Source of the DNA: a virus
Virus record (IMG/VR): IMGVR_UViG_3300036859_000189
Coordinates: 1 to 55,189 of that record
Direction: 5' to 3' (one strand)
DNA length: 55,189 nt
Positions 19,793 to 40,209 of the stretch are shown here, piece after piece (position 1 is the first letter of the stretch; each line of letters starts with the position of its first letter). The translations under genes and the position numbers were made by a program. The notes beneath the pieces were generated by a model, which saw nothing but the letters and a program-made list of their open reading frames with translations, was not told where the DNA came from and did not search any database.

Positions 19793-20626
19793 ATGGCAAT
19801 AAAACACGCGACGTGGCCTTGGGCCTCGCGGCACTCCACCGGCACGCTGCACTATAAGCAACTGTATAGCAATACATTCGGCTATACAGAGACACAGAAG
19901 GTAGTGGCGGCTGGAGCGACAGCTTCAGTTATCGCAGCTACCACCGGTTCGCTGACTGCGGATACAACGGTGGTTGATGGCATCACCCAACCTGATGTAC
20001 CACGAGTCCTAAAATTGACGATTACAACAGCTACTACGTCACCAGGTACGGTAGTCGTTACCGGAACAAATGTTGAAGGTAAAGTCATTACTGAGGGTTT
20101 CGTTGTTGCTCAGGGAACCACCGGTGACGTCAACGGTACTAAGGCGTTCTTCAGTGTTACCAGTTTGTTCATACCAAAGAATATGGGTACAACTACCACT
20201 TATTCTGTTGGTACTTTGAACGTACTTGGTATCAACCATCGGCTGTTCAAGCAGAATACTACTGTCAAGGTATACTCTGCATCGACTGTCTATGGAGCAT
20301 TGACGCTTCAGGCGCAACCGACAGTTTCAGCCAATGGCGGGACAGTTGAGTTGAATACGGTCACACCGGCTATTACACCGGACGGTACAAAGTTCCTTAT
20401 TATCGCCTATGCCTATGACAACTGGTCTGACGGCACGAGTGTTAACGATGAGCCGGAGTACTCCACCACGACTTCGACAAGTTCTACATCAACGTCTACT
20501 TCGACCACGACGATTACAACGTCGACATCGAGTACCTCGATTTCTACGTCCAGCACGTCAATCTCGACATCTAGCACTTCCACCTCGACCAGCTCTACAT
20601 CAACCTCAACAACGACAGCGCCGTAG
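19793..20626 (+). CDS. Virion protein with C-terminal Ser/Thr (mucin-like) tail
   Basis: A 277-residue protein. Residues 1 to about 220 are beta-rich with Thr/Val/Gly repeats, like phage head-fibre or decoration proteins. From about 222 to the end it is almost only Ser and Thr (TSTSSTSTSTSTTT style) with a few Ile. The same type of domain occurs in the proteins at 34307 and 38227. The gene follows the capsid gene and AAGGAATATC precedes the ATG. I infer a surface fibre whose tail is O-glycosylated by enzymes of the following operon. Confidence 0.7.
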   Translation: MAIKHATWPWASRHSTGTLHYKQLYSNTFGYTETQKVVAAGATASVIAATTGSLTADTTVVDGITQPDVPRVLKLTITTATTSPGTVVVTGTNVEGKVITEGFVVAQGTTGDVNGTKAFFSVTSLFIPKNMGTTTTYSVGTLNVLGINHRLFKQNTTVKVYSASTVYGALTLQAQPTVSANGGTVELNTVTPAITPDGTKFLIIAYAYDNWSDGTSVNDEPEYSTTTSTSSTSTSTSTTTITTSTSSTSISTSSTSISTSSTSTSTSSTSTSTTTAP

Positions 20627-20635
20627 GAGGTTTGC

Positions 20636-20938
20636 ATGGCTGACTTTAGTAAGAAGGTACAGAGCGAGAACGAGCATTTGGGCAATCTTACTTCGGCGAG
20701 GTTTGCCCACGTTCCAGCTTCAACTACGGCTACCGTACGCTCCCAGGCTGGAAGGTTGCTTAGAGTGGTTCTCAACACCAACGGCGGGACGGTCACACTA
20801 AGGAACGGTTCAGAGGTGATAGGGATTATTGCCTCTGACGCTCCTGAGGGAACGTTCAACTACGGGGTTTACTGCAATACCGGCATCATTTGTGAGACCG
20901 GCGCAACATGTGATGTCACGGTAGTATTCGCTCCGTAA
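20636..20938 (+). CDS. Small beta-rich virion protein
   Basis: A 100-residue protein with repeated strand patterns (TTATVRSQAGRLLRVVLNTN, TVTLRNGSEVIGIIAS) and a Cys pair near the end (YCNTGIICETGATCDVTV). It resembles the small, jelly-roll-like proteins found near head genes. TAGGAGG precedes the ATG. It is the last gene before the terminator at 20945. Confidence 0.6.
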   Translation: MADFSKKVQSENEHLGNLTSARFAHVPASTTATVRSQAGRLLRVVLNTNGGTVTLRNGSEVIGIIASDAPEGTFNYGVYCNTGIICETGATCDVTVVFAP

Positions 20939-20944
20939 CAGAGA

Positions 20945-20978
20945 TAGACAGCTAGGTTTTCCACAACTTGGCTGTCTA
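20945..20978 (+). terminator. Hairpin terminator after head genes
   Basis: TAGACAGC (20945-20952) pairs with GCTGTCTA (20971-20978). A T-rich stretch follows after a few bases (TTCTTTGGTTTTT). It separates head genes from the glycan operon. Confidence 0.5.
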
Positions 20979-20995
20979 TTCTTTGGTTTTTAATT

Positions 20996-21037
20996 AGACA
21001 CTTGCATTATTCCCATGCTATGATTCCGATAACGGCT
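20996..21037 (+). promoter_or_regulatory. Candidate promoter of the glycan operon
   Basis: AGACACTTGC at 20996-21005 differs from the late element at two positions. A TATGAT lies at 21019-21024, nearer than in the other copies. There is no start codon 42 bp downstream, so if it works it gives an mRNA with a short leader. It is weaker evidence than the other seven. Confidence 0.4.
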
Positions 21038-21074
21038 AGTCTCTTAGATGCACAAGTGTAGAAGTTATCTACAC

Positions 21075-22376
21075 ATGTCTAAAAAAATCTTTATTCTCTC
21101 AAACTTCTCCACCTACCTCCGGTCTTTCTCGCCGATCATCATCGTGGAGAGCCAACTGAATATGTTAAAACGGGCTGGTTACACACCAGTCCTTATTGCT
21201 GCTGATGGTTGGGAACCACCAGAGGATAGTATCTTCGCCGAGGTTGAGACAAAGCTTCTCTCTCCCGTCGCGTATCAAGACCCGCCAATTGTCAACGATC
21301 TGTTCAAAGAGGACGTGAGTTTACTCGTCCAACAGCTAGACGATATTATCCCCGATGGGTCAATAGTCCTCACGCACGATCTGATTTTTTTGCCGGACTA
21401 CACCAAGCACAACATCGCCGCACATAAGTTAGCCGAACAAAAACCGAACATCCGGTGGATCCACTGGGTTCATAGCGCCACTGGTCCGAACTCTCTAATC
21501 CAAGAAAGAGAAATGTACGGTGACGAGTATAAACGGCTTCTCTTGGACAAATTCCCCAATTCGCTGGTAGCTTACCCGAACGCCCAAGACATCCCCCGGG
21601 TAGCACGAAACTTCAGCTATGAAGAGTACGAGGTGGTGGAAGTCCCCCATGCGACCGATCCGGTAGAGGGCATGCATCCTCTGGTTCAAAGACTGTACGA
21701 CGAGTTAAAGCTGGGTGAAAAAGAAGTCGTGATGATCTACCCGATTCGCTTTGACAGGGGGAAGAATCCGCACATGAATATCCGAGTCGTAGCTGGGCTA
21801 GAGGCAATCGGGGTGTCGGCACATCTGATATTTTGCGACTTCCAATCTACGGGCGGGGATAAGGTTGTCTACAAAGAAGAATGTAAAAAACTTGCTGACG
21901 AGCTTGGTGTCCGGTCGAATATTACCTTCCTCTCAGAATTTGACGATCTCGCCCAGCTTGAAGTCTCACACGGTGTAATTCTCGATTTGTTCACTCTGTC
22001 GAATGTCTTTTGTCTGCCAAGTCGGAGCGAAACGTATTCGCTGATCGCGCAAGAGGCGATGCTGAAAGGCAACCTCTGTATTCTTAACTATGACTTCCCA
22101 GCCTTTCGACAAATCTACGGAGACAAGGCGTTGTACCGACAGTTCGATGGCGCAGAGATAGGCATGGATGGATTCGACGGCAAGATCGAAACATCTCACT
22201 CGAATATCGATTCATACTTCCGTGAAAGATTCGCTATCCCGATCAAAGCGTGGTTGATGCAGGACAAAGTTCTACATGGCAAAACGTGGGTGCGTACAAA
22301 GCGTAACCCTGACTATGTATTTCGTGAGTTTATCGAACCGTTAATTATGAGCGAGGATGAGAATGCCGAAATTTAG
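21075..22376 (+). CDS. Glycosyltransferase, GT-B fold (family 4-like)
   Basis: A 433-residue protein. The N-terminal half starts KKIFILSNFSTYLRSFSP; the C-terminal half has VMIYPIRFDRGKNPHMNI and the donor-site motif PSRSETYSLIAQEAMLKG, the E-x7-E pattern of GT4 enzymes. It would move a sugar from a nucleotide donor. First gene of the glycan operon. ATG 21075 is my choice because the family likeness begins there; ATG 21048 in the same frame is possible. Confidence 0.85.
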   Translation: MSKKIFILSNFSTYLRSFSPIIIVESQLNMLKRAGYTPVLIAADGWEPPEDSIFAEVETKLLSPVAYQDPPIVNDLFKEDVSLLVQQLDDIIPDGSIVLTHDLIFLPDYTKHNIAAHKLAEQKPNIRWIHWVHSATGPNSLIQEREMYGDEYKRLLLDKFPNSLVAYPNAQDIPRVARNFSYEEYEVVEVPHATDPVEGMHPLVQRLYDELKLGEKEVVMIYPIRFDRGKNPHMNIRVVAGLEAIGVSAHLIFCDFQSTGGDKVVYKEECKKLADELGVRSNITFLSEFDDLAQLEVSHGVILDLFTLSNVFCLPSRSETYSLIAQEAMLKGNLCILNYDFPAFRQIYGDKALYRQFDGAEIGMDGFDGKIETSHSNIDSYFRERFAIPIKAWLMQDKVLHGKTWVRTKRNPDYVFREFIEPLIMSEDENAEI

Positions 22377-23199
22377 TGTTGTCCTGCCTGTCTACTCGGC
22401 TAAAGACCCCAATGTTATCAATGCCGAACACCGGCATTATCGGGGGAAGCAGGTGCAAAGGGCGATTAAATCTGTCATTAATCAGCAGTTCCCCGACTGG
22501 GAGTTGATTATTGTTGACGACGGTTGCACCGATGAAACCCCAGAGATTTTAGATAAGTTTGTTCAAGCCGATCCCCGTATACGAGTTGTGCATCAGGTAA
22601 ACCAAAACCGTGCGGTTGCGCGGAATCGCGGTATGGATGAGGCGACCGGCGAATGGATTTGCTGGTTGGACTCGGACGATGAGTACAGTACCCACTATCT
22701 CCGCGAGCTTCATCAGGCAACCTTGGACTTCCCGGACTATCAGATATTTAACTTCGGCAGTATCATCCATTTTCCCGACCATCACACAGCAATCAGAAGT
22801 GTCTTCACGCCTAGTATTGAAGAAGACGGTCACGAATACTTTAAGAGTGGGCATATCGGATGTGGGAGTTTTGTCTTCAAGCGCGACCTATGGAAGAGCA
22901 GTGACACGTACAGAATCCCCGACGAGGTAAATCCGTATCAATTCGCAGCGACTTCAAAGTTCGACATGCGTTATCCCGACGATCAGCCAGACATCGAAAA
23001 CCCTGCTGGCGCGTTCACTGACGGAGTCTATCGCCACGGTCTTAGTTTGGGCAACCCCTGGGGAGACGACTTTCTCCAGTTCTACAAACTGACAAGACAC
23101 AACCGTAGCAAACCTCTGGATGTGCTTTTGTACATTCAGTATCCCCGCGCCCATGAAGAAATATACGAGCACTTTGGGGAGATTTATGAAGCCAATTGA
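22363..23199 (+). CDS. Glycosyltransferase family 2 (GT-A)
   Basis: A 278-residue enzyme with the classic start FSVVLPVYS, the VIINQ-type helix followed by WELIIVDDGCTDETPEIL, ARNRGMDEATGEWICWLDSDD (the DxD metal site). It overlaps the gene before by 14 bases; GAGG lies 6 bases before ATG 22363. In this operon it probably builds the phage glycan. The C-terminal part is unlike common family members and may set acceptor choice. Confidence 0.88.
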   Translation: MPKFSVVLPVYSAKDPNVINAEHRHYRGKQVQRAIKSVINQQFPDWELIIVDDGCTDETPEILDKFVQADPRIRVVHQVNQNRAVARNRGMDEATGEWICWLDSDDEYSTHYLRELHQATLDFPDYQIFNFGSIIHFPDHHTAIRSVFTPSIEEDGHEYFKSGHIGCGSFVFKRDLWKSSDTYRIPDEVNPYQFAATSKFDMRYPDDQPDIENPAGAFTDGVYRHGLSLGNPWGDDFLQFYKLTRHNRSKPLDVLLYIQYPRAHEEIYEHFGEIYEAN

Positions 23200-23977
23200 T
23201 TTGCATCTGGTGAGCTGGAACCGGCCAAAGATGACCGAGTTAGTTATCAAAACCATCCACCGAAATACCAAGCGAGACAACTTCCGGTTGGTTGTGCTTG
23301 ATAATGGCTCAAGTCCCGAGCAACAGGCTATGTTATTCAATCTGCACGAGCGGGGATTGATTGACGAGCTAGCCCTGTTATCCAGAAACTTCGGATTGGA
23401 GGCTGCTCGGCAGAAGATGCTATTAGAGTCAACCCGCAGCGATTACTTCGTTTGCGTGGACAACGATTGCTTGCCTCCACCTATCTCTAAGAAAACCGAT
23501 TGGCTGGAAAAGCTTGTCGATCTCGTGAAGCAATACGATGACTTTGCGGCCATTTCCTGTCGCACTCAAGTAATGATTGGTACGGGCAATATATTTGAAG
23601 AAGCTGACCAAGCAGGTGATGACATCGTCGAGTTCCCTCACCCTGGCGGCAGCTTGCGCATTATGAGAACTGATGCCGTGAAACAAGTCGGAGGCTGGGA
23701 CAGAGAAGCGCGTGGACGCGGTGGTGAGGAGCGATATATCTGCGGAAAATTAAACGACGTTGGTTATCGGACGGCTTTCGCGACGAAGATTAAGTGCTTG
23801 CATTTGTTCGGCACAAGAGGCTCGAATGGAACCGACCCTTGGGGGTACACTCAGGATATGCGGCCTGAAGGATCAGGGCATAACGATATTTCCCATCCGG
23901 CACTGACGCAAGGAGATAACGAGAAGGACGTGATTCGATTCGCAGGTGACTATCTAGCAGGGAGATACTTCGGATGA
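23186..23977 (+). CDS. Glycosyltransferase family 2 (GT-A)
   Basis: A 263-residue GT-A enzyme: LHLVSWNRPKMTELVIKTI, LVVLDNGSS, ARQKMLLESTRSDYFVCVDND (donor/metal site), then GGSLRIMRTDAVKQVGGWD and the acidic GGEERYICGKL, typical of the family 2 acceptor region. ATG 23186 with GGGGAG before it is preferred to an earlier GTG in frame. It overlaps both neighbours. Confidence 0.85.
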   Translation: MKPIDLHLVSWNRPKMTELVIKTIHRNTKRDNFRLVVLDNGSSPEQQAMLFNLHERGLIDELALLSRNFGLEAARQKMLLESTRSDYFVCVDNDCLPPPISKKTDWLEKLVDLVKQYDDFAAISCRTQVMIGTGNIFEEADQAGDDIVEFPHPGGSLRIMRTDAVKQVGGWDREARGRGGEERYICGKLNDVGYRTAFATKIKCLHLFGTRGSNGTDPWGYTQDMRPEGSGHNDISHPALTQGDNEKDVIRFAGDYLAGRYFG

Positions 23978-24621
23978 TTACAGTAATAATCAAGGATTCG
24001 GGCGAGCCTAGAGTCGTCCAGCTCACATATGAAAATATCTGGAAAGAGATCAAAGACATCCCAAAGTCCGAAATCATCGTGTCAGAGGACTGGTTTGCGC
24101 CGCTCAAGGATATTAAAAATACTTTCGTGTGTCTTGTGGAACCAGATTGCCTAGTCAACTCCGGTTACTTCACCTCTATGCTCGGGTTGATCGAACAAAA
24201 CCCTCGCTTTCGCAAGATGTCTATGCTCAGTTCATCGGTTGCAGTCACGCATTGGGTGAACAGATTTTATGGGTACAGTCTCAATAACGGGTACACCGAC
24301 GCGGTTGTGCCAAACCGAGAGAAGAAGTCACGCGGGCTTTATCCGATCCAGATCGGGTATGTGCCTGGCGCGATTGTCCGGATGGCGATGCTCAAGAAAT
24401 TTATTAAAGACCTTAACAGAAACCCCGGATGGCAAGATGATCTTGTGACGTTCTCTACCCGGTTGTCGCTTGAGTTCTGGCAGCAAGGTGATGGCAATCC
24501 TGTTTTTGTTAATCCAAACACAACTTACGTAACAACTGAGGACTATGTCAACAACATCACCAATATTGACCTCAACGTTGGTGAACTGCCAGAGGTATTT
24601 AGAAGGGAGATTATCTCATGA
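23974..24621 (+). CDS. Diverged GT-A glycosyltransferase-like protein
   Basis: A 215-residue protein. It keeps the flow of a short GT-A domain (EIIVSEDWF, FVCLVEPDCLVNSGYF in the place of the DxD strand, GYVPGAIVRMAMLKKFI), but the first strand and the DxD are altered (VEPD), so donor binding may be changed or lost. The gene is held in the operon by 4-base overlaps. It could be an inactive partner of a neighbour transferase. Confidence 0.55.
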   Translation: MITVIIKDSGEPRVVQLTYENIWKEIKDIPKSEIIVSEDWFAPLKDIKNTFVCLVEPDCLVNSGYFTSMLGLIEQNPRFRKMSMLSSSVAVTHWVNRFYGYSLNNGYTDAVVPNREKKSRGLYPIQIGYVPGAIVRMAMLKKFIKDLNRNPGWQDDLVTFSTRLSLEFWQQGDGNPVFVNPNTTYVTTEDYVNNITNIDLNVGELPEVFRREIIS

Positions 24622-24836
24622 GCGGAACGTGGCCTCACCAGTTCACTAAAAACGGCAAAGAGTACCAGATCGGTGAACAACCTTATCTGGATGAGTTGAC
24701 CCGCAAAGTTATGGCACAACCGATGATTTGCGTGCATTGTCACAAGGAGTACGTCCAGGGAGTTGACCCTAGACCGCTAGACCCTTGCCCAGCGCGAAGT
24801 GATAAGAGAGAAAAGAAGAGGATACTCAATACATGA
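24618..24836 (+). CDS. Small cysteine protein in the glycan operon
   Basis: A 72-residue hydrophilic protein with ICVHCHKEY and a later DPCPARSDK, so perhaps one zinc site. It is coupled to both neighbours by ATGA overlaps. The string AGACCCTTGC occurs inside it (24780-24789) but without the promoter context. Function unknown. Confidence 0.55.
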   Translation: MSGTWPHQFTKNGKEYQIGEQPYLDELTRKVMAQPMICVHCHKEYVQGVDPRPLDPCPARSDKREKKRILNT

Positions 24837-25504
24837 ACTTTTGGGACAATCTTTTAGGCGACGATGACCATGCCGCAACCTATATGGAAAGCTATGGGGA
24901 GGGGCCAGGGTTTGAGCTGCGTCACCGTATTGGTGCTTTGATTAACGATGGCGAATCCGTGCTTGATGTAGGTTGTGGGCCTGGGTGGAATCTTGACCAC
25001 TTTCAAAGTTTTGGACCAAGCGTTGGCAAATATAGAGGGTTAGACTATTCAGAGAGGTTTGTCAGAGTAGCTAACGAGAGGTGGGTGGGCCGAGAGGCAT
25101 TCTTTGCCACGCACGTCGTAAATTATCAAGGGGAGAAGAATAATAATCTCTCCGATGCTCTTCCTCTGTTCCGTTTGGGCGACGTTCGTAATATCGAGGA
25201 GCCAGATAAGTCGTGGGATGTAGTCATTCTCCAAGACGTGCTTGAACACACTAATGGCTACAAACAGCCCATTCAAGAGGCGTTGCGAGTAGCCAAGAAG
25301 CGAGTCATTATTACTTTTTGGCACCTTGCCGACAGTGATTCTCCCCATATAAACGACGACGGTGACGACGGCTGGGGGGCTTGGTACGACAAACGTGAAT
25401 GGGAAAAGCACCTCGACTCTTTGGGGATTCATTGGCTGTTGGATGAAGCTGAGATCGGCAATCGAATCCGGCACATCTATGTACTTGATAAGGAGATCGA
25501 GTGA
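24833..25504 (+). CDS. SAM-dependent methyltransferase (class I)
   Basis: A 223-residue protein with the SAM-binding motif SVLDVGCGPGWNLDHFQS, then the second strand YRGLDYSERFV and motif WDVVILQDVLEHTNGYK. These are hallmarks of class I small-molecule methyltransferases. In a glycan operon it would methylate a sugar. The last third carries a run of HINDDGDDGWGAWYD that is not part of the core fold. Confidence 0.85.
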   Translation: MNFWDNLLGDDDHAATYMESYGEGPGFELRHRIGALINDGESVLDVGCGPGWNLDHFQSFGPSVGKYRGLDYSERFVRVANERWVGREAFFATHVVNYQGEKNNNLSDALPLFRLGDVRNIEEPDKSWDVVILQDVLEHTNGYKQPIQEALRVAKKRVIITFWHLADSDSPHINDDGDDGWGAWYDKREWEKHLDSLGIHWLLDEAEIGNRIRHIYVLDKEIE

Positions 25505-26202
25505 AAGATTTAATTATCGGTTTTGGTCAAATCGGCAAAGCAGTGCAAGAAGCTATTTGCTTTGATCAAGCAAAGACGTTAGATAGCACGGCGAAAGATA
25601 TTATGCCTGGGGTCAACGTTATGCATGTCTGTTTCCCATACTCAGACGATTTCATTTCACAAGTTACAGACTACATTAAGAGATTTCAGCCAGAGCACAT
25701 CGTCATATACTCAACCGTGCCGATTGGAACGTGCGGTGAGATAGACAGTCGTGTTGTACACTCACCAATCGAAGGTAACCATCCCAATCTGGATCTTAGC
25801 ATTCGCCACGCCAGGCGGTGGGTTGGCTACAACAACGAAGAAGAGGGTAGATTTTTCAAAACATACTATGCGAACAAAGGGTTAAGCTCGAAGCTTGTGC
25901 CGAGTACACATTTTACCGAAGCGCTGAAACTCCTCAGCACAACAGAATACGGTCTGAATATCGAGTTTGCCAGATACAAGAAGCACATAGCCGATGAACT
26001 TGGTATGACTTTCGACCTAACGAAGGAATGGAATCTGGACTACAACAAACTCTACAAGAATCTCGGGCTAGGGGACAGGTACCAAAAGTTCATTCTTGAT
26101 GCGCCCGAAGGGAGCAAGGGCGGGCACTGCGTCACGCCAAACGCCAGGCTGTTGTTTGAGCAGTATCCGGCTGAAATCTTACGAGAGGTTGCCGAGTTAT
26201 GA
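25501..26202 (+). CDS. UDP-glucose/GDP-mannose dehydrogenase-like protein, short
   Basis: A 233-residue protein starting at GTG. LIIGFGQIGKAV near residue 4 is the NAD site; VIYSTVPIGTC and HSPIEGNHPN follow the order seen in nucleotide-sugar 6-dehydrogenases, and KGGHCVTPNARLL matches their catalytic-cysteine motif GGHC. Family members are about 400 residues, so the C-terminal domain that completes the substrate site is missing. It may make a uronic acid, or have a changed reaction. Confidence 0.7.
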   Translation: MKDLIIGFGQIGKAVQEAICFDQAKTLDSTAKDIMPGVNVMHVCFPYSDDFISQVTDYIKRFQPEHIVIYSTVPIGTCGEIDSRVVHSPIEGNHPNLDLSIRHARRWVGYNNEEEGRFFKTYYANKGLSSKLVPSTHFTEALKLLSTTEYGLNIEFARYKKHIADELGMTFDLTKEWNLDYNKLYKNLGLGDRYQKFILDAPEGSKGGHCVTPNARLLFEQYPAEILREVAEL

Positions 26203-26774
26203 TTGTCTTCGACTCTGATGATTTTGGATGTGACCACGTTATTTCTGACATGTGCCAAAGCCATGATTGCCGCGATATTCTCCTAGAACTTAAGAATGCT
26301 AATCCAGCTTTTAAGGCTACCTTGTTTGCGATACCGGGAGAAATGACACCCGAACTAATCCTGTGGGCGGTTGCTAATAGGTCATGGATAGAACTTGCTG
26401 TACACGGTATTTTTCACAGGAGCAACTACGAGTGTGCAGGATTAACTGCTGAACAATTTAAGCAAGATATGGCGTTTGTAGAAGATGCTGGATTCATTAG
26501 GTTTTTCGCTAAAGGTTTCAAGGCACCAGGATGGCAGATAAGCGACGGCGTTTATCAGTGGCTTAAAAATAACGGCTGGTGGGTAGCCGACCAAGCCTAC
26601 AACGATGAACGCCGTCCGACAGACTTGCCTGTCTACAAGATTGGCGAGAATTCTATCCACACGCATACTTGGAATTGTGTCGGCAATGGGGTTTACGAGT
26701 TATACGATCAGCTTGTAGAGCAGGTAAAAGATGAGACTGATTTTAAGTTTGTTAGCGAGGTTGTGAATGCGTAA
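26199..26774 (+). CDS. NodB-like polysaccharide/sugar deacetylase
   Basis: A 191-residue protein. FDSDDFG at residues 4-10 gives the metal-binding Asp, AVHGIFHRS gives the H-x3/4-H pair, and GFKAPGWQIS matches the R/KxPxG motif of NodB-fold enzymes. These remove N- or O-acetyl groups. Length equals the bare catalytic domain without signal peptide, so it acts in the cytoplasm on a precursor sugar or glycan. Confidence 0.75.
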   Translation: MIVFDSDDFGCDHVISDMCQSHDCRDILLELKNANPAFKATLFAIPGEMTPELILWAVANRSWIELAVHGIFHRSNYECAGLTAEQFKQDMAFVEDAGFIRFFAKGFKAPGWQISDGVYQWLKNNGWWVADQAYNDERRPTDLPVYKIGENSIHTHTWNCVGNGVYELYDQLVEQVKDETDFKFVSEVVNA

Positions 26775-27399
26775 CGATTGGTGGCACCAAGAATTCGCCA
26801 AAGGCTCTCCGGCCGCTCAGATGGGTGGCCCAGAAGGGCGGCAAGGCGTGGATCATGCGACCCATGAATGGTTTACCAAACACGTCCCAGAAGGCAGCTC
26901 TGTGCTGGACGTTGGCTGTTGCAACGCACACACCCTTGAGTCGTTCAAGAAAGCCGGCAAGAAGATTACTTACCACGGCGTTGACCAGCTCGACGGACTG
27001 GTCGCATATTGTTTGAGTACTTATCCCGATGCTGCTTTTTCACAGTCTGATGCCTCAGACTTACAGCAGTTTCAAGACAACTCGTTTGACTACGTTCTCT
27101 CCCGTCACGTAGCTGAGCACTTGAATCACTATTCTCAGCACTTTATGGAGATGTGGCGCGTAGCTAAAAAAGAAGTTGTGATTGTCGGGTTCCTAGAGTT
27201 CACGGGAACCGACTTTGACAGGTTGCAATATGGCGTCAAAGAGAATGGCAAACTTCTGGCCCATTGGTACAACCAGTACAGCCGCGCAGGAATAGAACGG
27301 TTCATCGCTTATAACATGCCGACGGCAAGCGTTGAGATCGTCGAGGACTACGAAGAAACCGGACACCCGATAATCATCATCAGAAAGGAACAGCCGTGA
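26767..27399 (+). CDS. SAM-dependent methyltransferase (class I)
   Basis: A 210-residue protein with SSVLDVGCCNAHTLESFKKAG (split at the glycine pair), YHGVDQLDGLV, FSQSDASDLQQFQDNSFDYV and SRHVAEHL, the complete order of class I methyltransferase motifs. It overlaps the deacetylase gene by 8 bases. It probably methylates a glycan residue; it differs clearly from the other two methyltransferases of the operon. Confidence 0.85.
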   Translation: MRNDWWHQEFAKGSPAAQMGGPEGRQGVDHATHEWFTKHVPEGSSVLDVGCCNAHTLESFKKAGKKITYHGVDQLDGLVAYCLSTYPDAAFSQSDASDLQQFQDNSFDYVLSRHVAEHLNHYSQHFMEMWRVAKKEVVIVGFLEFTGTDFDRLQYGVKENGKLLAHWYNQYSRAGIERFIAYNMPTASVEIVEDYEETGHPIIIIRKEQP

Positions 27400-28229
27400 G
27401 TTACAGCGTAGTCATACCAAGCCTTGCCAACGAGAAGACAAAGCCCTATCTAGAGCTTTGCGTTAAAAGCCTTCGAGAGAGCGGGTTCGATGGTCAGATC
27501 ATCGTAGTAACGAACGGTACTACTGCGCCGATCCCGTTACCGGAAATTGCCAACATGTGCGTGCGACTGCACACCCGCGATCAGGGACAATGCAACGCGG
27601 TCAATATCGGAGCGCAGATTGCAACAGGTGACTACCTGATGATTAGTAACGATGATATGTACTTCGCGCCTTACTGGGGTAATTATTTACGATTCGATGA
27701 TCCAGTATTTTCCCCGAATCTGGTAGAACCTACTGACAATGCCGGTTCCGCCCGGCCGTTTATGAAGCTCGATGGCGGGTTCACTATAGAAGCATTTGAT
27801 AAGGGTAAGGTTGACGAGTTCGTTGAGGAGTGGGGGTATAAGTTTAGCGGACGGGCTACGCCGATACGGGAAGAGCCAGGCTTTAACCTACCCTTTTTTA
27901 TAAAGAGAGACCTCTGGAATCTTCTAGGGGGGTACGATACCGCCTACGATCCCTGGGGGAGCAACAGTGACACCGATCTACAGACGCGTATAAACCTCGC
28001 GGGCGTTATACCGATGCGCCTTAGAGATGTTCTGGTCTATCACTTCTCAAATAAGTCTGGAACTTTTGACGGTACGCACCAGGACTTTTACCAGAACAAT
28101 CTCGAATACTTCAAAGATAAGTTCGGCTTTGACCGCGACGAACTAGGCTCGGATGTTTGGTACAACAAAGACATGATCCCAACTGATGAAAGCAAGATCA
28201 AATACCAGCATGAGAAGTACAATGGTTGA
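27396..28229 (+). CDS. Glycosyltransferase family 2 (GT-A)
   Basis: A 277-residue enzyme from GTG: YSVVIPSLANEKTKPYLELC, IIVVTNGTT, NIGAQIATGDYLMISNDDMYF (metal site NDD), FNLPFFIKRDLWNLLGGYD, and DTDLQTRINLAG as the acceptor-side acidic motif. All belong to GT2 enzymes. It overlaps genes on both sides. Confidence 0.87.
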   Translation: MSYSVVIPSLANEKTKPYLELCVKSLRESGFDGQIIVVTNGTTAPIPLPEIANMCVRLHTRDQGQCNAVNIGAQIATGDYLMISNDDMYFAPYWGNYLRFDDPVFSPNLVEPTDNAGSARPFMKLDGGFTIEAFDKGKVDEFVEEWGYKFSGRATPIREEPGFNLPFFIKRDLWNLLGGYDTAYDPWGSNSDTDLQTRINLAGVIPMRLRDVLVYHFSNKSGTFDGTHQDFYQNNLEYFKDKFGFDRDELGSDVWYNKDMIPTDESKIKYQHEKYNG

Positions 28230-32009: not shown

Positions 32010-32986
32010 AGATAGCTCTATTCGATCCGTACGGCGGCAAATTCACCGACGGTATGCAGAAGTGGTGGCGGGAGCATGGCTACGAAGTCGAGTACCAGCG
32101 ATACTACAACCCTCAGATCGCTGAACAAGCGGATGTCCTATGGTTCGAAACCACCGATAATAATATCGCTTCAGCCACCAACCCAGGCCAAGCGATCTTG
32201 GCGGATGACGCAAACTACAAACCCTGGGATTTGCACGATATGGATATGTCGAATAAGAAGGTGATTGTCCGTGCTATCGACATCGAAGTCTGGCAAGGGC
32301 ATTTCGCGGCTGCTCACTGGGACTTAGTGGACGATCTTATCTTCATAGCCCCGCATGTCAGGACATTAGTTGACCCTGATGCTTTGCCGTTGGTTACAGA
32401 AAAACTAAAGCTTCACACGATTCCTTGCGCTGTCGATCTAGACAAGTGGACGTTCAAAGAACGCGGCCCAGGCTTCGACATAGCCGTGATTTCCGAAAAG
32501 TGGACATCGAAGGGGACCGATCTTATCCTCCAAATTGCTCTCAAACTTAAACAATTTGACGAACGCTATAAGATCCACTGGCTAGGCCAACGGAGTGATT
32601 ACCCCTGGGAGTATGCATACTTCGATGAATTTGTGGAGCATCACAACTTAAACATCGAATTTACGAATATCTTGAATGACGGATCGACGGTTGACGACTT
32701 TCTGGAGGGAAAAAACTTTCTACTCCACGCGTCGCATAAAGAAGGCTTTTCTTACGCTACGGCTGAAGCGATGGCAAAAGGAATCAAACCAGTTATTCAC
32801 CGTTTCTTCGGGGCTGATGATTTGTGGGGGAGCCTGACGTGGAGTTCTATCGACGAAGCAATCGAGAAGATTGTGATCGGAGAGTACGACTCCCACAGCT
32901 ACCGGCAGTTTTTAATCAATCACGGCTATGTAATTCCTGACATGATGGAAGCGATAGATAAAGTAATAAAAGGAGAGTCAAGATGA
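32006..32986 (+). CDS. Glycosyltransferase, GT-B fold (family 4-like)
   Basis: A 326-residue enzyme. KIALFDPYGGKFTDGMQKWW starts the first domain, IPCAVDLDKWTFKERGPGFD leads to the second, followed by ISEKWTSKGTDLILQIALKL and the donor-site motif LLHASHKEGFSYATAEAMAKG (E-x7-E). Typical GT4-like glycosyltransferase, about 50 residues shorter than average. Overlapping start and stop codons join it to its neighbours. Confidence 0.83.
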   Translation: MKIALFDPYGGKFTDGMQKWWREHGYEVEYQRYYNPQIAEQADVLWFETTDNNIASATNPGQAILADDANYKPWDLHDMDMSNKKVIVRAIDIEVWQGHFAAAHWDLVDDLIFIAPHVRTLVDPDALPLVTEKLKLHTIPCAVDLDKWTFKERGPGFDIAVISEKWTSKGTDLILQIALKLKQFDERYKIHWLGQRSDYPWEYAYFDEFVEHHNLNIEFTNILNDGSTVDDFLEGKNFLLHASHKEGFSYATAEAMAKGIKPVIHRFFGADDLWGSLTWSSIDEAIEKIVIGEYDSHSYRQFLINHGYVIPDMMEAIDKVIKGESR

Positions 32987-33321
32987 CCAGAGAAGAAGCA
33001 CATAAGTTAGTTGACGAATTATTCGATTCTAAAGAAAAGCAGCCTGCCTTAACAGCGGAAGACATAGTTACTCCAGCATCAGCAGCCAACGAGCCAGACC
33101 CAAAACCCGAGCCATCAAAAGACAAGCGCGCGGTCCGTACTAAGTCAAGCGGCGACAGGGTTTACTTACTTGACGAGACGAAGAAAACCCGTCAGTGGGT
33201 CACGAATCCGACGGTTCTAAAAAATCTTGGCTTTGAGCTGCCCGATGTCAAAGAGATAGACGATGCCGAGATGCTGAAGTATCAAATGGCACCTGCCCTC
33301 TACCGAGTAGAAAATGGATAG
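32983..33321 (+). CDS. Small protein with a domain seen beside glycosyltransferases
   Basis: A 112-residue protein. The first half is charged and Pro-rich, probably flexible. Residues about 55-108 (DRVYLLDETKKTRQWVTNPT, then VLKNLGFELPDVKEID) match a small beta domain that I know as a repeat fused to or near glycosyltransferases and peptidoglycan-related proteins, with the pattern VYLL-x-R-x-W-x-x-NP-x-x-x-x-x-LGF. It might hold the glycan acceptor. Low certainty on function. Confidence 0.55.
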   Translation: MTREEAHKLVDELFDSKEKQPALTAEDIVTPASAANEPDPKPEPSKDKRAVRTKSSGDRVYLLDETKKTRQWVTNPTVLKNLGFELPDVKEIDDAEMLKYQMAPALYRVENG

Positions 33322-34267
33322 ACCGAAACTCAATACATTCATAATTCCGATCCTGCGTACTGATCTGATCGAGCGGTGCTTGGAGACGCTTTACCGGTAC
33401 ACGGAACCGAACTTCTACGTGTTTGTTATCGATCAGTCGATTGAGGGTCTGGACCCAGAACTCAGGGACAAGTACAAGAATCTGATGGTCATCCGAACAC
33501 CGAAAAGTGATCTCCACTACACGGGGAACCTCGGCCATAGCCAGGCCACGAACTTAGGAGTTCAACTCGCACAGACGCCCTACGTGACGTTCCTGAATGA
33601 TGACGTTGAGTTTGTCTCGAAGAAATGGTGGCAAGGTGTCCTCGATACGTTCGAGAAGGTAGAGACAGCCACACCTACTCGGCCGGCGTTACTCATCAAT
33701 GTAGGCTCGATAAAGCTTCCTGATTGGTCTGTTGGGAAACCGAAGGGGGAGGACCACTACATCCTGCCTTACAAGGACGAATACACAGATGCGGACTGGG
33801 ATTTTTTGGTCAACGAAGAACATTACGTTAACGAACATCTGACAATTCAACCAGGTTCTATTATTGATGGTATCAATCTCTACTGTTCGGTTGTCGACAC
33901 TAAACGTCTGCTGGAAGTTGGACTGATTGATGAGTTCTGGTATCCGGGCAACTTCAATGATTATGACCTCTGTTGTCGAGCCAGTATGTTCGGCTATCGC
34001 TGCGTTGGGACGACTCTATCCTGGGTTTTTCATCATTGGAGCCAGACCTTTGAAAGCGCAGATCAGGTCAGTCTATTGGTTCAAGACGAACTGAAGCACT
34101 TCAACGAACGAGAGAAGTGGGGAGATCGTTTCGAACTCTGGGGCGTGCGCTGCTCGAAGGAAGGTTGTGACGAGATCATGCACACCAAAGACGGCGTGAA
34201 GGCAACTTGCCCAAAGCATCCTGAAGAAGTCTACGCTATGCCAGAGAATACGATCGAACCGCTCTAG
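33314..34267 (+). CDS. Glycosyltransferase family 2 with C-terminal zinc knuckle
   Basis: A 317-residue enzyme ending the glycan operon. TFIIPILRTDLIERCLETLY, YVFVIDQSIEG, ATNLGVQLAQTPYVTFLNDD (metal site NDD), YPGNFNDYDLCCRASMFGY and FHHWSQTFES are GT2 features of rhamnosyl-type transferases. After the catalytic domain comes a CSKEGCDEIM...CPKH zinc knuckle not usual for the family. The late promoter L5 begins with its stop codon. Confidence 0.83.
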   Translation: MDRPKLNTFIIPILRTDLIERCLETLYRYTEPNFYVFVIDQSIEGLDPELRDKYKNLMVIRTPKSDLHYTGNLGHSQATNLGVQLAQTPYVTFLNDDVEFVSKKWWQGVLDTFEKVETATPTRPALLINVGSIKLPDWSVGKPKGEDHYILPYKDEYTDADWDFLVNEEHYVNEHLTIQPGSIIDGINLYCSVVDTKRLLEVGLIDEFWYPGNFNDYDLCCRASMFGYRCVGTTLSWVFHHWSQTFESADQVSLLVQDELKHFNEREKWGDRFELWGVRCSKEGCDEIMHTKDGVKATCPKHPEEVYAMPENTIEPL

Positions 34268-34306: not shown

Positions 34307-36109
34307 ATGGCACGCCTGCGCTCTAAGGGTTTTGAGTTTAACTCCGCTACGGCGGGGATGGAGTGGTCAGACGTTGTTAATGCGCCGACCATTGTTACTT
34401 CTCCCGTCCGCTCGGGGACTTACGCTGGTTCGATCCCGAGTTTGACCAGTGGCGTAGAGAAGTTCTTTGAGGATGTTTTTGCCACCTCCGATCAAGCTGG
34501 CGACCACTTTGTCCGGTACTACCTCTATATCACTACGCTACCGAATGTCACCACTACGATTTCGGCTTTTGTCAACACCGCTGGCGATCAAACGGGGTGG
34601 ATTGACCTCACAACCACCGGAGTCTTGGAACTGTTTGATGGAGTTGGTAATTCTGTTGGCACGTCATCTGCCCTCAACACCGGGCAATGGTACAGGATCG
34701 AGCACAAGCACGGCGCGACTACGACCATAGATGAGTTCAAGATCGACGGCACCGTGATCGCTACGACGGCCACGGGCGGTGGCGGGAGTATCGCCAGGTA
34801 CCGCTTGGGCGGCAACATCTTCACGCAGACCACTACTACGATCTCAATCCAGTTTGATGATTATGCCATTAACAACACGGCTGCTGGTGCGGGGCAGACC
34901 GGCTACCCCGGCGACGCTAAATTAGTCCTAGCCTTGCCTACTGGTGCTGGTGACAACGCTGCCACGACCGGTACGTTCAGCATGATTAATGAGATCCCGC
35001 CCTCCGATACTGCCACCACAGGCGTGACGATGATTGAGCTGGACACCAACACTTCTATCGGTGACTACGCGATGACCGATAGCTCAACTCTGGGCATTGC
35101 ATCTGGTGACACGATTCAGTTGGTGGACGTTTACGCTAGGGTGCGCGAGGAGACAGCAGGAACGTCAAACTATACGCTGCGGATCAAGTCCGCTTCTGGC
35201 GGCACGGTATCAGCTAGCACCAGTGTGGATGCCGGCGACGCTACCCCTCGGACAAACCCGAGCGGTACTACTGCCTTCGGAACACGGCTTGTATCGTACA
35301 CTGACCCGACGACTGCGGCGGCGTGGACGCCCACAGGGACCAATTCGATAGACAACATGCAGGTCGGAGCCGCTACTACTGATGGTACGCCTGATATATG
35401 GGTGTTGTGGCTCGGCGCTTACATTGAGTATGTCCCATCGGCTACCACAACCTCAACATCCTCTACGTCGTCAAGTATTAGTACAAGCTCTACGAGCTCT
35501 TCAATTTCGACTTCATCGACCAGCTCAAGCATCAGCACATCGTCAACTTCCAGCTCAACTTCTACCAGTAGCACTAGCTCATCACGGTCGACTTCTACGT
35601 CGAGTACGTCAAGCAGCGTCTCCACCTCATCGACGTCCAGTAGTCGATCCACGAGCACCAGTAGTACGTCTAGCTCTCGGTCGACATCGACCAGCTCAAC
35701 GTCATCATCGATTTCCACGTCTTCGACTAGCTCGTCAATAAGTACTTCGTCGACGAGCAGTTCAATTTCGACCAGCTCCACCAGTAGTAGCATCTCGACG
35801 TCTTCGACGTCTAGCTCGATAAGTATTTCGACGAGTAGCACATCTAGCTCCACGAGCCTATCGACGAGTTCGACAAGCTCGTCCGTGTCCACCTCCACAT
35901 CCTCTACGTCAAGCAGCACGAGTTTTAGTACATCGAGCACTTCGTCTTCGACATCAACGACTCAATCGTTCACGACCTCCACCAGCAGTACGAGTACTTC
36001 TTTTTCAACCAGCACGACGGCCTTAAATGTTATGGCCTTTCCTAGACCGCGCATTCGTCCTGAGGTGATGGGATTTAGAATTAAAAAACCAAGGATCGCA
36101 TTTCGATGA
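34307..36109 (+). CDS. Virion fibre-type protein with long Ser/Thr mucin-like stalk
   Basis: A 600-residue protein. Residues 1 to about 200 resemble a LamG/concanavalin-type jelly roll (WYRIEHKHGATTTIDEFKID, RYRLGGNIFTQTTTTISIQF); 200-375 form a second beta-rich domain. From about 378 to 572 it is almost only Ser and Thr with occasional Ile, Arg or Val. The codons in this stretch are mixed (TCG, AGT, TCA, AGC, ACG, ACT), so the protein composition is under selection while DNA repeats are avoided. The tail after 575 is basic. I infer a glycosylated surface fibre or appendage. Confidence 0.72.
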   Translation: MARLRSKGFEFNSATAGMEWSDVVNAPTIVTSPVRSGTYAGSIPSLTSGVEKFFEDVFATSDQAGDHFVRYYLYITTLPNVTTTISAFVNTAGDQTGWIDLTTTGVLELFDGVGNSVGTSSALNTGQWYRIEHKHGATTTIDEFKIDGTVIATTATGGGGSIARYRLGGNIFTQTTTTISIQFDDYAINNTAAGAGQTGYPGDAKLVLALPTGAGDNAATTGTFSMINEIPPSDTATTGVTMIELDTNTSIGDYAMTDSSTLGIASGDTIQLVDVYARVREETAGTSNYTLRIKSASGGTVSASTSVDAGDATPRTNPSGTTAFGTRLVSYTDPTTAAAWTPTGTNSIDNMQVGAATTDGTPDIWVLWLGAYIEYVPSATTTSTSSTSSSISTSSTSSSISTSSTSSSISTSSTSSSTSTSSTSSSRSTSTSSTSSSVSTSSTSSSRSTSTSSTSSSRSTSTSSTSSSISTSSTSSSISTSSTSSSISTSSTSSSISTSSTSSSISISTSSTSSSTSLSTSSTSSSVSTSTSSTSSSTSFSTSSTSSSTSTTQSFTTSTSSTSTSFSTSTTALNVMAFPRPRIRPEVMGFRIKKPRIAFR

Positions 36110-36321: not shown

Positions 36322-36362
36322 AGACCCTTGTAGGGTCTCTTGGGTTGTCATTAGCTAAAGAT
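36322..36362 (+). promoter_or_regulatory. Late promoter L6, leaderless type
   Basis: AGACCCTTGT at 36322-36331 lies 41 bp before ATG 36363; TAGCTA occupies -11 to -6 inside CATTAGCTAAAG. Confidence 0.7.
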
Positions 36363-37019
36363 ATGGCATTCCCCGGGGCACTCCCAGCAGCAGGTACCGC
36401 ATCGTCAACGGATACTCTAGCCGCTGCCGGCCACACATCACTACACAATACTGATCGCGACGAGATACGAGCAATTGCTACAAAGGTCGGAACTGGCGCT
36501 TCAACCCCAGCAGCAGGTACCGTTATGCGCGGAACCGGTGTAGGTACATCCGCGTGGGGTGCCGTTAGCCTAACGACTGATGTGACTGGCACACTCCCCG
36601 TTGCAAGCGGGGGTACTGGGGTGACCTCAACAGCTGATCTCATCCAGCTCGTCCTACCTACAGCCTACCCCGTCGGCTCGATATATACGTCTGTTGTTTC
36701 AACCAATCCAGCAACACTTTTCGGGTTTGGTACATGGGTTGCTTTCGGTCAAGGCAGGGTACTTGTTGGCCTTAACTCAGGTGATACGGACTTTGACACG
36801 CCTGAGGAAACAGGTGGCGAAAAGACTCACACATTGACAGTGGCTGAAATGCCCGCGCATCAACATACTGGCGGCATTACTACTGGTGGGGCACTAGGCA
36901 TTAAGTCAGCTCCGGACGTCGGGACGACTCTTCAGGATACGGGCAGTGTGGGTGGTGGTGGGGCTCATAACAATGTCCAGCCTTACATTGTTGTTTATAT
37001 GTGGAAAAGGTCGGCGTAA
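36363..37019 (+). CDS. Tail/receptor-binding protein with collar-type C-terminal domain
   Basis: A 218-residue protein. The N-terminal part is a Thr/Ala-rich shaft with the GTGVGTSAWGAVSL and PVASGGTGVTS motifs frequent in tail fibres. The C-terminal part (YPVGSIYTSVVSTNPATLFG, TWVAFGQGRVLVG, GEKTHTLTVAEMPAHQH, NNVQPYIVVYMWKR) is the widely spread baseplate/collar domain of phage tail proteins. It is likely a host-binding tip. ATG 36363 is the predicted transcription start of L6. Confidence 0.82.
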   Translation: MAFPGALPAAGTASSTDTLAAAGHTSLHNTDRDEIRAIATKVGTGASTPAAGTVMRGTGVGTSAWGAVSLTTDVTGTLPVASGGTGVTSTADLIQLVLPTAYPVGSIYTSVVSTNPATLFGFGTWVAFGQGRVLVGLNSGDTDFDTPEETGGEKTHTLTVAEMPAHQHTGGITTGGALGIKSAPDVGTTLQDTGSVGGGGAHNNVQPYIVVYMWKRSA

Positions 37020-38224
37020 TGATTATTCCTGTAATAAATCCCGAAACTATTGATCTGGAAAAGTCCTACTTGGCTGATCCAATTGCAGCAGGTACGACGT
37101 CCCTAACGGTTAAGAATAATAATCGCTTCGTCGCGAATGATCGGATCATGATCGGTGAGATGGGGCATGAGAAGACGGAGGTTGTCACGATTTCCTCCGT
37201 CTCTGGCGGAACGGTCGCGGCTGTCGGCTCGACGGTCTTTGAGCATGAGGCTGACGCTCCTGTGTACAAGCTTTTGTTTGACCAGGTTAAATATTACCGT
37301 GCGACCTCTCTAAACGGTTCCTACTCTGTTATCTCCACACAAGATATGGATGTCGACAACGCCAACTTAACCACGGTTTACGATGACACATCCGGTACAG
37401 TTAGCCACTTCTACAAGTTCACGTTTTATCACAGCGTGTCGGCTGTTGAGAGTTCGTTCTCTGATCCTATTGCTGGTGGGGGGTATCGCCGACGGCAGGT
37501 TGGAAATATCATCGACGAGGTACTCCAGGAGGTTTCTGACCCGAACGAAACACACGTCACCAGGAACGAAATGCTCGGATACTTTAATGATGTAAACGAC
37601 GATTTGACCATTAATGTTTCCAAGCCATATGACTTTCTTCGGACACGCACAGCTCTGACAAGAACCGCAAATACGATTACTCTGGATTTTCCAACGGATT
37701 CAGATGGAGATGAGACCATGTGGAAATTTGACCGCATGGATTATAACTTCACTGACACGACTCCTGATCCTGACACGGATACGATGAAGACCATTGACGT
37801 TATCCCGGAGGAGGAGTTCCGCAATCGCTATTCGGACATTGAGATAACGGCGACAAACGTGGACGATCGAATGCCAGACGCAATTTCTTTGGATACGGCA
37901 GTCAAAAAAATTCGCTACTGGCCTGCCTCAGAGAACACGATTGCTAACGCTTTCTATCTGTACTATTGGAAGTTCTTTACACGTATTGATTCTGAAGGGG
38001 ACGTGATCGAAACCCCGACCCCGAAAATTTACAAGCTCTACTCCAAGGGAATGTACTACCGGAAGCGTGGTGTAACCGAGCCAAGCTACAACCAGACTGC
38101 CGACAGGTATTTTGCTGACTATGGGATAGAGAAATCTAAATACACCGGGATCGACCGTCGAGATAAAGGGACACCCCGTAGTTTTAGACCAGAGACCCGA
38201 ACGATTAAATCTTTCAGGAGATAG
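37019..38224 (+). CDS. Head-tail adaptor-like structural protein
   Basis: A 401-residue protein. Residues 10-90 have a beta-rich fold (SLTVKNNNRFVANDRIMIGE), then a second segment with FTFYHSVSAVESSFSDP, and a helical C-terminal half (IIDEVLQEVSDPNETHVTRN, MLGYFNDVNDDLTINV) ending KIRYWPASENTIANAFYLYY. This last part resembles adaptors of short-tailed phages such as P22 gp4 in style. Order before the nozzle-like gene supports a connector role. Its ATG overlaps the previous stop (TAATG). Confidence 0.6.
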   Translation: MIIPVINPETIDLEKSYLADPIAAGTTSLTVKNNNRFVANDRIMIGEMGHEKTEVVTISSVSGGTVAAVGSTVFEHEADAPVYKLLFDQVKYYRATSLNGSYSVISTQDMDVDNANLTTVYDDTSGTVSHFYKFTFYHSVSAVESSFSDPIAGGGYRRRQVGNIIDEVLQEVSDPNETHVTRNEMLGYFNDVNDDLTINVSKPYDFLRTRTALTRTANTITLDFPTDSDGDETMWKFDRMDYNFTDTTPDPDTDTMKTIDVIPEEEFRNRYSDIEITATNVDDRMPDAISLDTAVKKIRYWPASENTIANAFYLYYWKFFTRIDSEGDVIETPTPKIYKLYSKGMYYRKRGVTEPSYNQTADRYFADYGIEKSKYTGIDRRDKGTPRSFRPETRTIKSFRR

Positions 38225-38226
38225 CC

Positions 38227-40209
38227 TTGCCACAGCAACGTCAGTATAACCAGCTTGATCTCTCTGGCGCGGTCCAGCGAGCCACCTCTCATTTGCTCCG
38301 CAAGGGGAATGAAGTTGTCGATTCCAGAAACGCGGCCTACAACATCCGCATAGGTTCGGCTGTTCGACGCCCTGGATATGAGAAGGTGGGCAGGACAATT
38401 GAGCATGGCAACGATTCTCTGGGGGCGACGGTTTATAAATACGATCAGAACAACAAGATCGTCGTTGGGATCAATAATTCTACAAACACAAACGCGACAC
38501 TTCGGTATCTAGACACCGCCGACTACTGGACGACGATTCTCTCCAACGCTGCGGCTAATACTCGCTTTCAGATGACGACTTTGGGTGGGCTGGATCAACT
38601 CTTTGTAGCTGGTAAATCAGACAATGAGGTTTACCTGCCATTAACAAACATCGATTCAACCCTCACGGCCTCTACAACGAGGAACGTTTACACAGCACCG
38701 AAAGCAGCTTTCATCGCGCCGTTTAATGGCGGGATGCTCGCTATGAATGTCGAGGTGAATGGAAAGAAGTACGGGGAGCGCATGTATCCCTCTTCTCCAG
38801 CTATAGGCCCAATTACCTTTGTTCAGACAGATCAGAAGGGGCTTTTGAAACAACTTCGTATCGATGCAACTACCTATTTGAAGGTAGGCATGAGCTTAGA
38901 CATCTACGGCGCTGGGACGGAAGCTAAGAAGGTTTCAGGCTTGACGATCGTTTCTGTGGACAAGAAGAACAAACGATTCTCATTCGCTGATGCCACAATC
39001 GATGTAGCCGATAACGATGAGATCTGGCTCTCCGGTACCAAAGGGAAACTCAATATTTTCTGGAACGTGGACGATCCAAACACCGAAGATGCGGAATACT
39101 TTGAGACCAAGAATGGCCGGCCGATTACTGGTTGGACGGGGAATAACAACCGTCTGCTCGTATTTACCGACAGTTCTTTTACCAAGCTGGACGGAGCGAA
39201 TGTCATTACTATTTCTGAAGAGATCGGCTGCGTGTCTCACGAGACGATCCAGAATATCGGCTCTTGGACGATCTGGCTACACACCTCGGGGGTCTGGGCG
39301 TACAACGACAACACAGGTGACCTGAAGCTTTTATCCAAGGCTATCGAGCCGTACGTCCGCTCGATTAACCAAGCGAACTTTCGCTTTGCCTCCGGTGGAG
39401 TGGTGGGACGTACTTATAAACTGGCCGTTGGTGAGCTGCTGCCGATCGAGAGTGTAACGACCTCAACATCGACTTCCTCAACTAGCACATCCTCTACAAG
39501 CAGCAGCACCAGCTCAACGTCGACCAGTAGTACGTCCACATCATCCACGTCCAGCTCGACAAGTTCAACGTCGACCAGCACGTCGCTTACGACTACGTCC
39601 ACGAGTTCGACAAGTTTTAGCACGTCATCCACGTCATTCAGCACCAGCTCAACTTCTACGTCGATGTCCACCTCGACCAGCTCAACAACTACGACCACCG
39701 CAATATCCACGAAAAAAGTAGTGAGATTTGTTTACGACTTCGATATGAATGCCTGGTGGTTAGAAGAGCACAAACGCGAGATCCGCTTCCAGTTCAACCA
39801 CACCATGCACGGATATACTAAGCCGTACTTCACCGATGACACTGGCCGATTGTTTAGAGACGAGACCGGCAACACCGACAACGGCGATTCAATCCCTGTC
39901 GAGATCGAGGTGGGTCGCGATAACTTCGGTAGCAACCTGAGAAAACAGTACAGCACGGTGATCTCAGACAGCGAGAACGCCCGGGGCGCGATCATTCAGT
40001 ATGCAACTGACGGCGGGCAGCACGTAACCCTAGGTCAGATTACTAGACCTGTACAAGTCTTTGACTATCCGCAGGGGAATCAGGCTATCGAAGGGCGTGA
40101 CATCAACTACAAGATCACACACAACGACAAAGGCGCACCTCCGTACTTTAACGGACTGGGAAGCTATTACTCCGTAACAGAAAGCATCCCAAACGCGGGT
40201 CAACAATGA
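38227..40209 (+). CDS. Tail nozzle/hub-like protein with inserted mucin-like segment
   Basis: A 660-residue protein from TTG with CAGGAG upstream. The flow (LDLSGAVQRATSHLLRKGNE, RPGYEKVG, FVAGKSDNEVYLP, WLHTSGVWAYNDNTGDLKLL and a C-terminal YDFDMNAWWLEEH, FRDETGNTDNGDSIPVEIEV) matches the beta-propeller-like tail hub or nozzle proteins of podoviruses (P22 gp10, T7 gp12 type). At residues about 411-495 a Ser/Thr-only stretch is inserted between two parts of the fold, where a surface loop would be. It would display glycans on the tail. Confidence 0.7.
   Translation: MPQQRQYNQLDLSGAVQRATSHLLRKGNEVVDSRNAAYNIRIGSAVRRPGYEKVGRTIEHGNDSLGATVYKYDQNNKIVVGINNSTNTNATLRYLDTADYWTTILSNAAANTRFQMTTLGGLDQLFVAGKSDNEVYLPLTNIDSTLTASTTRNVYTAPKAAFIAPFNGGMLAMNVEVNGKKYGERMYPSSPAIGPITFVQTDQKGLLKQLRIDATTYLKVGMSLDIYGAGTEAKKVSGLTIVSVDKKNKRFSFADATIDVADNDEIWLSGTKGKLNIFWNVDDPNTEDAEYFETKNGRPITGWTGNNNRLLVFTDSSFTKLDGANVITISEEIGCVSHETIQNIGSWTIWLHTSGVWAYNDNTGDLKLLSKAIEPYVRSINQANFRFASGGVVGRTYKLAVGELLPIESVTTSTSTSSTSTSSTSSSTSSTSTSSTSTSSTSSSTSSTSTSTSLTTTSTSSTSFSTSSTSFSTSSTSTSMSTSTSSTTTTTAISTKKVVRFVYDFDMNAWWLEEHKREIRFQFNHTMHGYTKPYFTDDTGRLFRDETGNTDNGDSIPVEIEVGRDNFGSNLRKQYSTVISDSENARGAIIQYATDGGQHVTLGQITRPVQVFDYPQGNQAIEGRDINYKITHNDKGAPPYFNGLGSYYSVTESIPNAGQQ

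Follow-up and report, generated by a model that had tools for sequence, protein, structure and literature searches.

What would a phage do with an operon of sugar enzymes placed among its virion genes, next to proteins that carry long stretches of serine and threonine? The question is raised by IMG/VR record IMGVR_UViG_3300036859_000189, which was examined whole (55,189 bases; hereafter the window). Phage particles are usually regarded as bare protein. Sequence comparisons indicate that this phage and its tract-bearing relatives likely sugar-coat their own particles. The Ser/Thr tracts would, with good probability, be dedicated acceptor domains on virion proteins, and the operon would make O-linked oligosaccharides and attach them to these domains.

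The gene order in the window is terminase, portal, scaffold, decoration-like protein, capsid, ST1, sugar operon, ST2, tail proteins and ST3, where ST1, ST2 and ST3 are the tract-bearing proteins. Genes for internal or ejection-like proteins lie 3' of ST3, followed by a peptidase and an integrase. The presence of the integrase gene, at 51098, means that the phage may be temperate. No cultured member of this phage group was found, the capsid protein of the nearest isolate being about 31% identical, and the capsid relatives in genome contigs belong to scattered MAGs that are uninformative on the host. The structural genes that the argument needs are as follows:

13304 to 14833, + strand: terminase large subunit (PHROG 38, E 1e-79)
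14879 to 17092, + strand: portal protein (PHROG 156, E 5e-10)
18805 to 19740, + strand: major capsid protein (MCP), the query for finding and placing relatives (PHROG 371, E 3e-16)
19793 to 20626, + strand: ST1, all-beta protein directly 3' of the capsid gene, with a C-terminal Ser/Thr tail (tract 20456 to 20623; model pLDDT 89)
34307 to 36109, + strand: ST2, fibre- or tail-like protein with a 196-aa tract (35435 to 36022; PHROG 14065)
36345 to 37019, + strand: tail protein with a Gp10 C-terminal domain (PF21939, E 2e-32)
37001 to 38224, + strand: conserved protein of the tail region, encoded between ST2 and ST3 and also present in an operon-less clade of relatives
38227 to 40209, + strand: ST3, predicted tail-nozzle protein with the tract as an internal loop (39442 to 39711; Foldseek)

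ST3 is a tail nozzle by its predicted fold, and hence would be a virion component. Its model matched the tail of Pa223 (E 1e-15), P22 gp10 and T7 gp12 in Foldseek, and residues 412 to 494 of the tract are modelled as a disordered loop between strands. The predicted fold of ST1 had no match in the PDB and matched only proteins of uncultured phages; the position of its gene directly after the capsid gene suggests that ST1 is a head-adjacent virion protein. The N-terminus of ST2 matches a minor tail protein of phage Galactica (E 2e-9). Gene position and weak matches thus hint that ST1 and ST2 are structural. Elsewhere in the window, positions 4286 to 5281 encode a protein of S/F-G-D-A-R/E-V repeats that matches the YdcK beta-solenoid repeat, and at 6095 to 7154 an RlaP-type nucleotidyltransferase adjoins a PNKP-type phosphatase, possibly as a nucleic-acid repair pair. 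A 670-aa protein near the right end (52168 to 54180, - strand), on the opposite strand, has no PHROG or Pfam match.

A sequence-only reading of the window had described stretches made up almost exclusively of Ser and Thr in the proteins at 19793, 34307 and 38227, and these stretches are indeed present. They span residues 222-277 of ST1, 377-572 of ST2 and 406-495 of ST3 (56, 196 and 90 aa, respectively), and Ser and Thr make up 88-89% of all three, versus 14.7% of the other structural proteins. The number of such 30-aa stretches expected by chance is negligible, at about 4e-11 per 15,000 aa. A wrong-frame artefact was considered and rejected, as conserved in-frame sequence lies on both sides of the ST3 tract in many relatives. 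All six Ser codons and all four Thr codons are in use, and codon sharing between like residues at the repeat spacing does not exceed that in shuffled tracts. Recent expansion of a DNA repeat was therefore rejected as the origin of the tracts. The randomised codons indicate instead that selection acts on the amino acids and that the composition itself is maintained.

The sugar operon (21048 to 34267) lies between ST1 and ST2 and consists of 17 mostly overlapping genes on a single strand, with one gap of 211 bp (24622 to 24832). Its features, in order, are:

20943 to 20980, + strand: possible terminator hairpin directly 5' of the operon, followed at 20995 to 21024 by a promoter-like site (consensus scan only)
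21048 to 22376, + strand: GT4a, a glycosyltransferase (GT), the first and best conserved gene of the operon (PF00534, E 2e-9; core)
22357 to 23199, + strand: GT2a glycosyltransferase (PF00535, E 1e-29)
23120 to 23977, + strand: GT2b glycosyltransferase (PF00535, E 2e-11)
23974 to 24621, + strand: divergent GT-A-like protein by alignment, without a Pfam match (weak match to profiles of solved GTs, best E 0.13)
24833 to 25504, + strand: methyltransferase MT1 (PF08241, E 2e-12; core)
25501 to 26202, + strand: nucleotide-sugar dehydrogenase-like protein, a variable gene (TIGR03026, E 7e-4, far below the cut-off)
26199 to 26774, + strand: polysaccharide-deacetylase-like protein with invariant D7-D8, H69-x3-H73 and H154-x-H156 (core)
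26767 to 27399, + strand: methyltransferase MT2 (PF08241, E 7e-16)
27396 to 28229, + strand: GT2c glycosyltransferase (PF00535, E 2e-10; core)
28186 to 28719, + strand: methyltransferase MT3, TylF-like (PF13578, E 2e-16)
28692 to 29387, + strand: GT2d glycosyltransferase (PF00535, 23.5 bits versus a cut-off of 23.3)
29384 to 30205, + strand: PseB/CapD-like protein of the UDP-GlcNAc 4,6-dehydratase family (PF02719, E 2e-71)
30202 to 31098, + strand: NDP-sugar 4,6-dehydratase/epimerase (PF16363, E 6e-55)
31095 to 32009, + strand: GT-B-type glycosyltransferase (PF13524, E 4e-14; core)
32006 to 32986, + strand: GT4b glycosyltransferase (PF00534, 26.6 bits versus a cut-off of 26.4; core)
32983 to 33321, + strand: small conserved operon protein without a Pfam match, kept in several relatives
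33314 to 34267, + strand: GT2e glycosyltransferase (PF00535, E 1e-10; core)

The sequence-only reading had counted nine GTs, three methyltransferases, three nucleotide-sugar enzymes and a deacetylase in this operon. Pfam confirms all three methyltransferases (24833, 26767 and 28186) and eight of the GTs (21048, 22357, 23120, 27396, 28692, 31095, 32006 and 33314), those at 28692 and 32006 being barely above the cut-off; the ninth (23974) is a probable GT, being GT-A-like without a significant match. Two nucleotide-sugar enzymes (29384 and 30202) likewise have Pfam support, the former scoring 226 bits against TIGR03589, below the equivalog cut-off, and the match of the third (25501) is weak. The deacetylase-like protein at 26199 has no family match, and a PDB profile search with it was also empty; its invariant Asp and His residues would fit a NodB-type deacetylase. 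The hairpin and promoter-like site might make the operon its own transcription unit, although promoter matches in the region were fewer than in shuffled sequence. Across the relatives the operon core is GT4a, GT2a, GT2b, MT1, the deacetylase-like protein, GT2c, GT1_2, GT4b and GT2e. The accessory genes vary, and additions include DegT-type aminotransferases, C-methyltransferases and extra GTs. A conserved core with variable accessory genes is what would be expected for a glycan with a fixed core and variable decoration.

If the tracts and the operon work together, they should appear and disappear together, as the sequence-only reading had anticipated. Capsid searches gathered about 100 relatives, with MCP identities of 34-84%. 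Among the 66 that could be scored, tract and GT operon are both present in 28 and both absent from 38, and no relative has one alone; one of these relatives (G038) was scored by tracts elsewhere in its record (763, 289 and 146 aa), with none beside the capsid gene. The case that would speak against the proposal, a tract without GTs, was sought in this group and found in none of the 28 tract-bearing loci. That tracts and GT operon are always jointly present or absent in the group strongly suggests a self-made, mucin-like sugar coat.

The most informative relatives form an operon-less sister clade of 15 members, whose capsid proteins are 50-56% identical to that of the window. The clade has the same layout, retaining in order the terminase, portal, scaffold, decoration and capsid genes and the homologues of ST1, the 37001 protein and ST3, and both the operon and the tracts are missing. 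In alignments, the ST1 homologues of the sister clade reach exactly to the start of the tract and end there; in the ST3 homologues the flanking strands are joined directly, the tract loop being missing. Four near-full-length genomes of the clade (G131, G134, G138 and G139; 40-49 kb) have no GT2 match and no 30-aa window with more than 53% Ser/Thr. A GT-A-like gene of the 23974 family (L297 13947 to 14537 and its equivalents) stays at the operon site in the sister clade, where it is the sole GT-type gene left. The MCP tree places the operon-less clade inside the tract-bearing lineages with strong support, and four changes are needed for the tract and four for the operon. There are two independent contrasts on well-supported branches and four in all; these are all concordant and by themselves not significant.

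Phages outside this group were collected with a codon-degenerate DNA pattern for TSTSSTSTS, which found 117 stretches of DNA, many of them without tracts and used as controls. Tracts and GT clusters occur in one genome in unrelated phages (G018/G030, G036 and G095) and in distant capsid relatives (G020, G038 and G101), and in several of these phages the tracts are directly adjacent to the GT clusters. Among lineages outside the capsid family, GTs were found in 5 of 8 with a tract and in 7 of 71 controls (Fisher p 0.0015), or in 5 of 8 versus 2 of 60 when the comparison was confined to records below 60 kb (p 1e-4), in a pattern-based sample for which the 50-aa tract threshold and the lineage grouping were chosen after seeing the data and which excludes short 'MSGSD...' tracts as well as short reading frames that are probably spurious. 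In other unrelated contigs (G016/G099, G096 and G100), Ser/Thr tracts occur without GTs of PF00535 or PF00534, and phage Ser/Thr tracts are therefore not always glycan acceptors. In G042, GTs lie beside an ST2 homologue that has no tract.

Several of these genomes have features of their own. G016 and G099, which are related to each other, encode very large proteins in which the Ser/Thr tracts are flanked by Cys, and have no GT2 or GT4 match; such tracts may represent another use of Ser/Thr stretches. A homologue of the ST2 N-terminal domain in record G043 (L042, 9416 onward) ends in a Ser/Pro tract (SPSVSPS...), and this record has no PF00535 or PF00534 GTs. G101 encodes three small proteins with long Ser/Thr tracts between its capsid gene and GT operon (28327 to 29330), as well as a 1249-aa protein of which 1141 residues are tract.

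Where the glycan would be placed bears on the choice between explanations. Virion proteins are cytosolic until assembly, and a route to the cell surface requires membrane GTs, flippases or ligases. About 215 operon proteins from 13 records have no clear membrane segment by hydropathy, the only value above 1.9 being 1.92 for a 119-residue reading frame in G036; hydrophobic proteins are present outside the operon in many of the same records. An operon without a clear membrane protein leads one to expect a cytosolic acceptor and makes lipid-linked host-surface glycans unlikely. Together with the tail-nozzle fold predicted for ST3, this supports the earlier proposal that the glycan is made for the virion rather than the host surface. 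It is conceivable that the operon instead makes a polysaccharide or alters the host surface, for superinfection exclusion or serotype conversion, with the tracts being unrelated linkers or adhesive tails. The integrase fits such a role, and temperate phages are known to carry GTs that convert the serotype (as discussed in PMC12619734), but the membrane GT, flippase and ligase expected of such systems are not evident: having no clear membrane protein, the operon encodes neither a flippase nor a polyprenyl-phosphate GT nor a ligase. Moreover, the operon is located among the late structural genes, away from the integrase, as the sequence-only reading had pointed out, and it comes and goes with the tracts, which makes this explanation distinctly improbable. 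Glycosylation of phage DNA, with incidental tracts, merits even less credence. DNA-modifying GTs have been described in phages (Pyle et al. 2024, as cited in PMC12619734), and phage-encoded GTs are the point of likeness, but no enzyme of the thymidylate-synthase/hydroxymethylase type was found in 12 genomes with tracts and GTs by a thymidylate-synthase-type search (a Tet/JBP search had no working control). The operon here also has many different GTs and sugar-modifying enzymes, its late-block location does not suit this role, and the co-loss with the tracts would be left unexplained.

Alternatively, linkage alone could explain the co-inheritance, in which case the tracts would be disordered spacers and the operon would glycosylate another virion protein or site. 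A stretch of about 20 kb holds the tract genes and the operon, so that one recombination could swap the whole block, and this explanation also gains from the small number of independent transitions and from the unrelated phages that have Ser/Thr tracts but no GTs. It does not account for the assembly of the same pairing by unrelated phages, nor for the Ser/Thr composition being kept while the carrier proteins differ (the ST2 carrier varies among the relatives), and we regard it as unlikely. The acceptor reading can be extended, and the balance of evidence leans somewhat towards the extended form, to a virus-encoded mucin-type O-glycoprotein system with disordered acceptor domains on head, nozzle and fibre and a complete cytosolic pathway, which would be conserved in the clade, gained and lost as a unit, and independently assembled in at least three other phage lineages.

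If the tracts are acceptors, their carriers would be the head-adjacent protein ST1, the fibre-like protein ST2 and the tail nozzle ST3, and glycosylation would take place in the host cytosol late in infection. One GT would put the first sugar on Ser or Thr, and the other GTs would extend it stepwise from nucleotide sugars supplied in part by the phage's own dehydratases. GT4a is our guess for the initiating enzyme; its profile matched no solved structure at E 0.01, so no close known Ser/Thr-initiating GT was found. The methyltransferases and the deacetylase-like protein would trim the glycan, and the outcome would be a hydrophilic, mucin-like coat on the particle. We infer the acceptor role of the tracts, the sugar structure and the benefit of the coat, which could be shielding or the tuning of adhesion.

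With the enzymes encoded beside obvious acceptors, and with sister clades that have or lack both, it becomes directly testable what a sugar coat would do for the virion, be it in shielding, adhesion, host recognition or stability. The operon also offers glycoengineering a ready-made collection of soluble enzymes that are candidates for O-glycosylation, and further self-glycosylating phages could be sought by looking for Ser/Thr tracts that adjoin GTs.

Among known systems, the glycans of chloroviruses are attached through N-linkages to a folded protein rather than to Ser/Thr tracts. Giant viruses and chloroviruses use their own GTs to glycosylate the capsid (reviewed in PMC9614988 and PMC7019647), and are alike in their virus-encoded GTs and capsid target but differ in having a eukaryotic host and a different capsid. 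The sequence-only reading knew of no described phage with this combination. Virion glycosylation by phage GTs is in fact known in mycobacteriophages Che8, Corndog and Myrna (Freeman et al. 2023, as cited in PMC11256854, PMC12619734 and PMC12363180), and what stands of that claim is that none with mucin-like acceptor domains was found among phages in the literature searched, which is not proof of absence. The likeness lies in the phage-encoded GTs, of which Pfam confirms eight here, and in their proposed targets, which would be virion proteins in the window too. According to the citing summaries, few phage GTs are implicated in mycobacteriophages, versus up to nine here, and the glycans are at the C-termini of capsid and tail-tube subunits (PMC12619734), whereas the window has several methyltransferases and sugar-nucleotide enzymes beside long tracts on several proteins, including a nozzle loop. 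In the SRRP loci of Gram-positive bacteria, such as that of Fap1, a Ser/Thr acceptor is encoded beside GTs that build an oligosaccharide stepwise (PMC5207161). The low-complexity acceptor beside GT genes and the soluble, membrane-free GT set are shared with the window. No Pfam match to accessory Sec genes (SecA2/SecY2) was found among the operon genes, and without a recognised export gene of this kind the operon is not classed as an SRRP locus. It also differs in that its acceptors would be virion parts, in its added methyltransferases and dehydratases, and in a GT4a without a close match among solved GTs, the initiating complex of SRRP loci being of the GtfA/GtfB type. Mycobacteriophage virion glycosylation is thus the closest biological precedent and the SRRP locus the closest working analogue, and dedicated mucin-like acceptor domains served by a large cytosolic operon would amount to a new, SRRP-like form of virion glycosylation.
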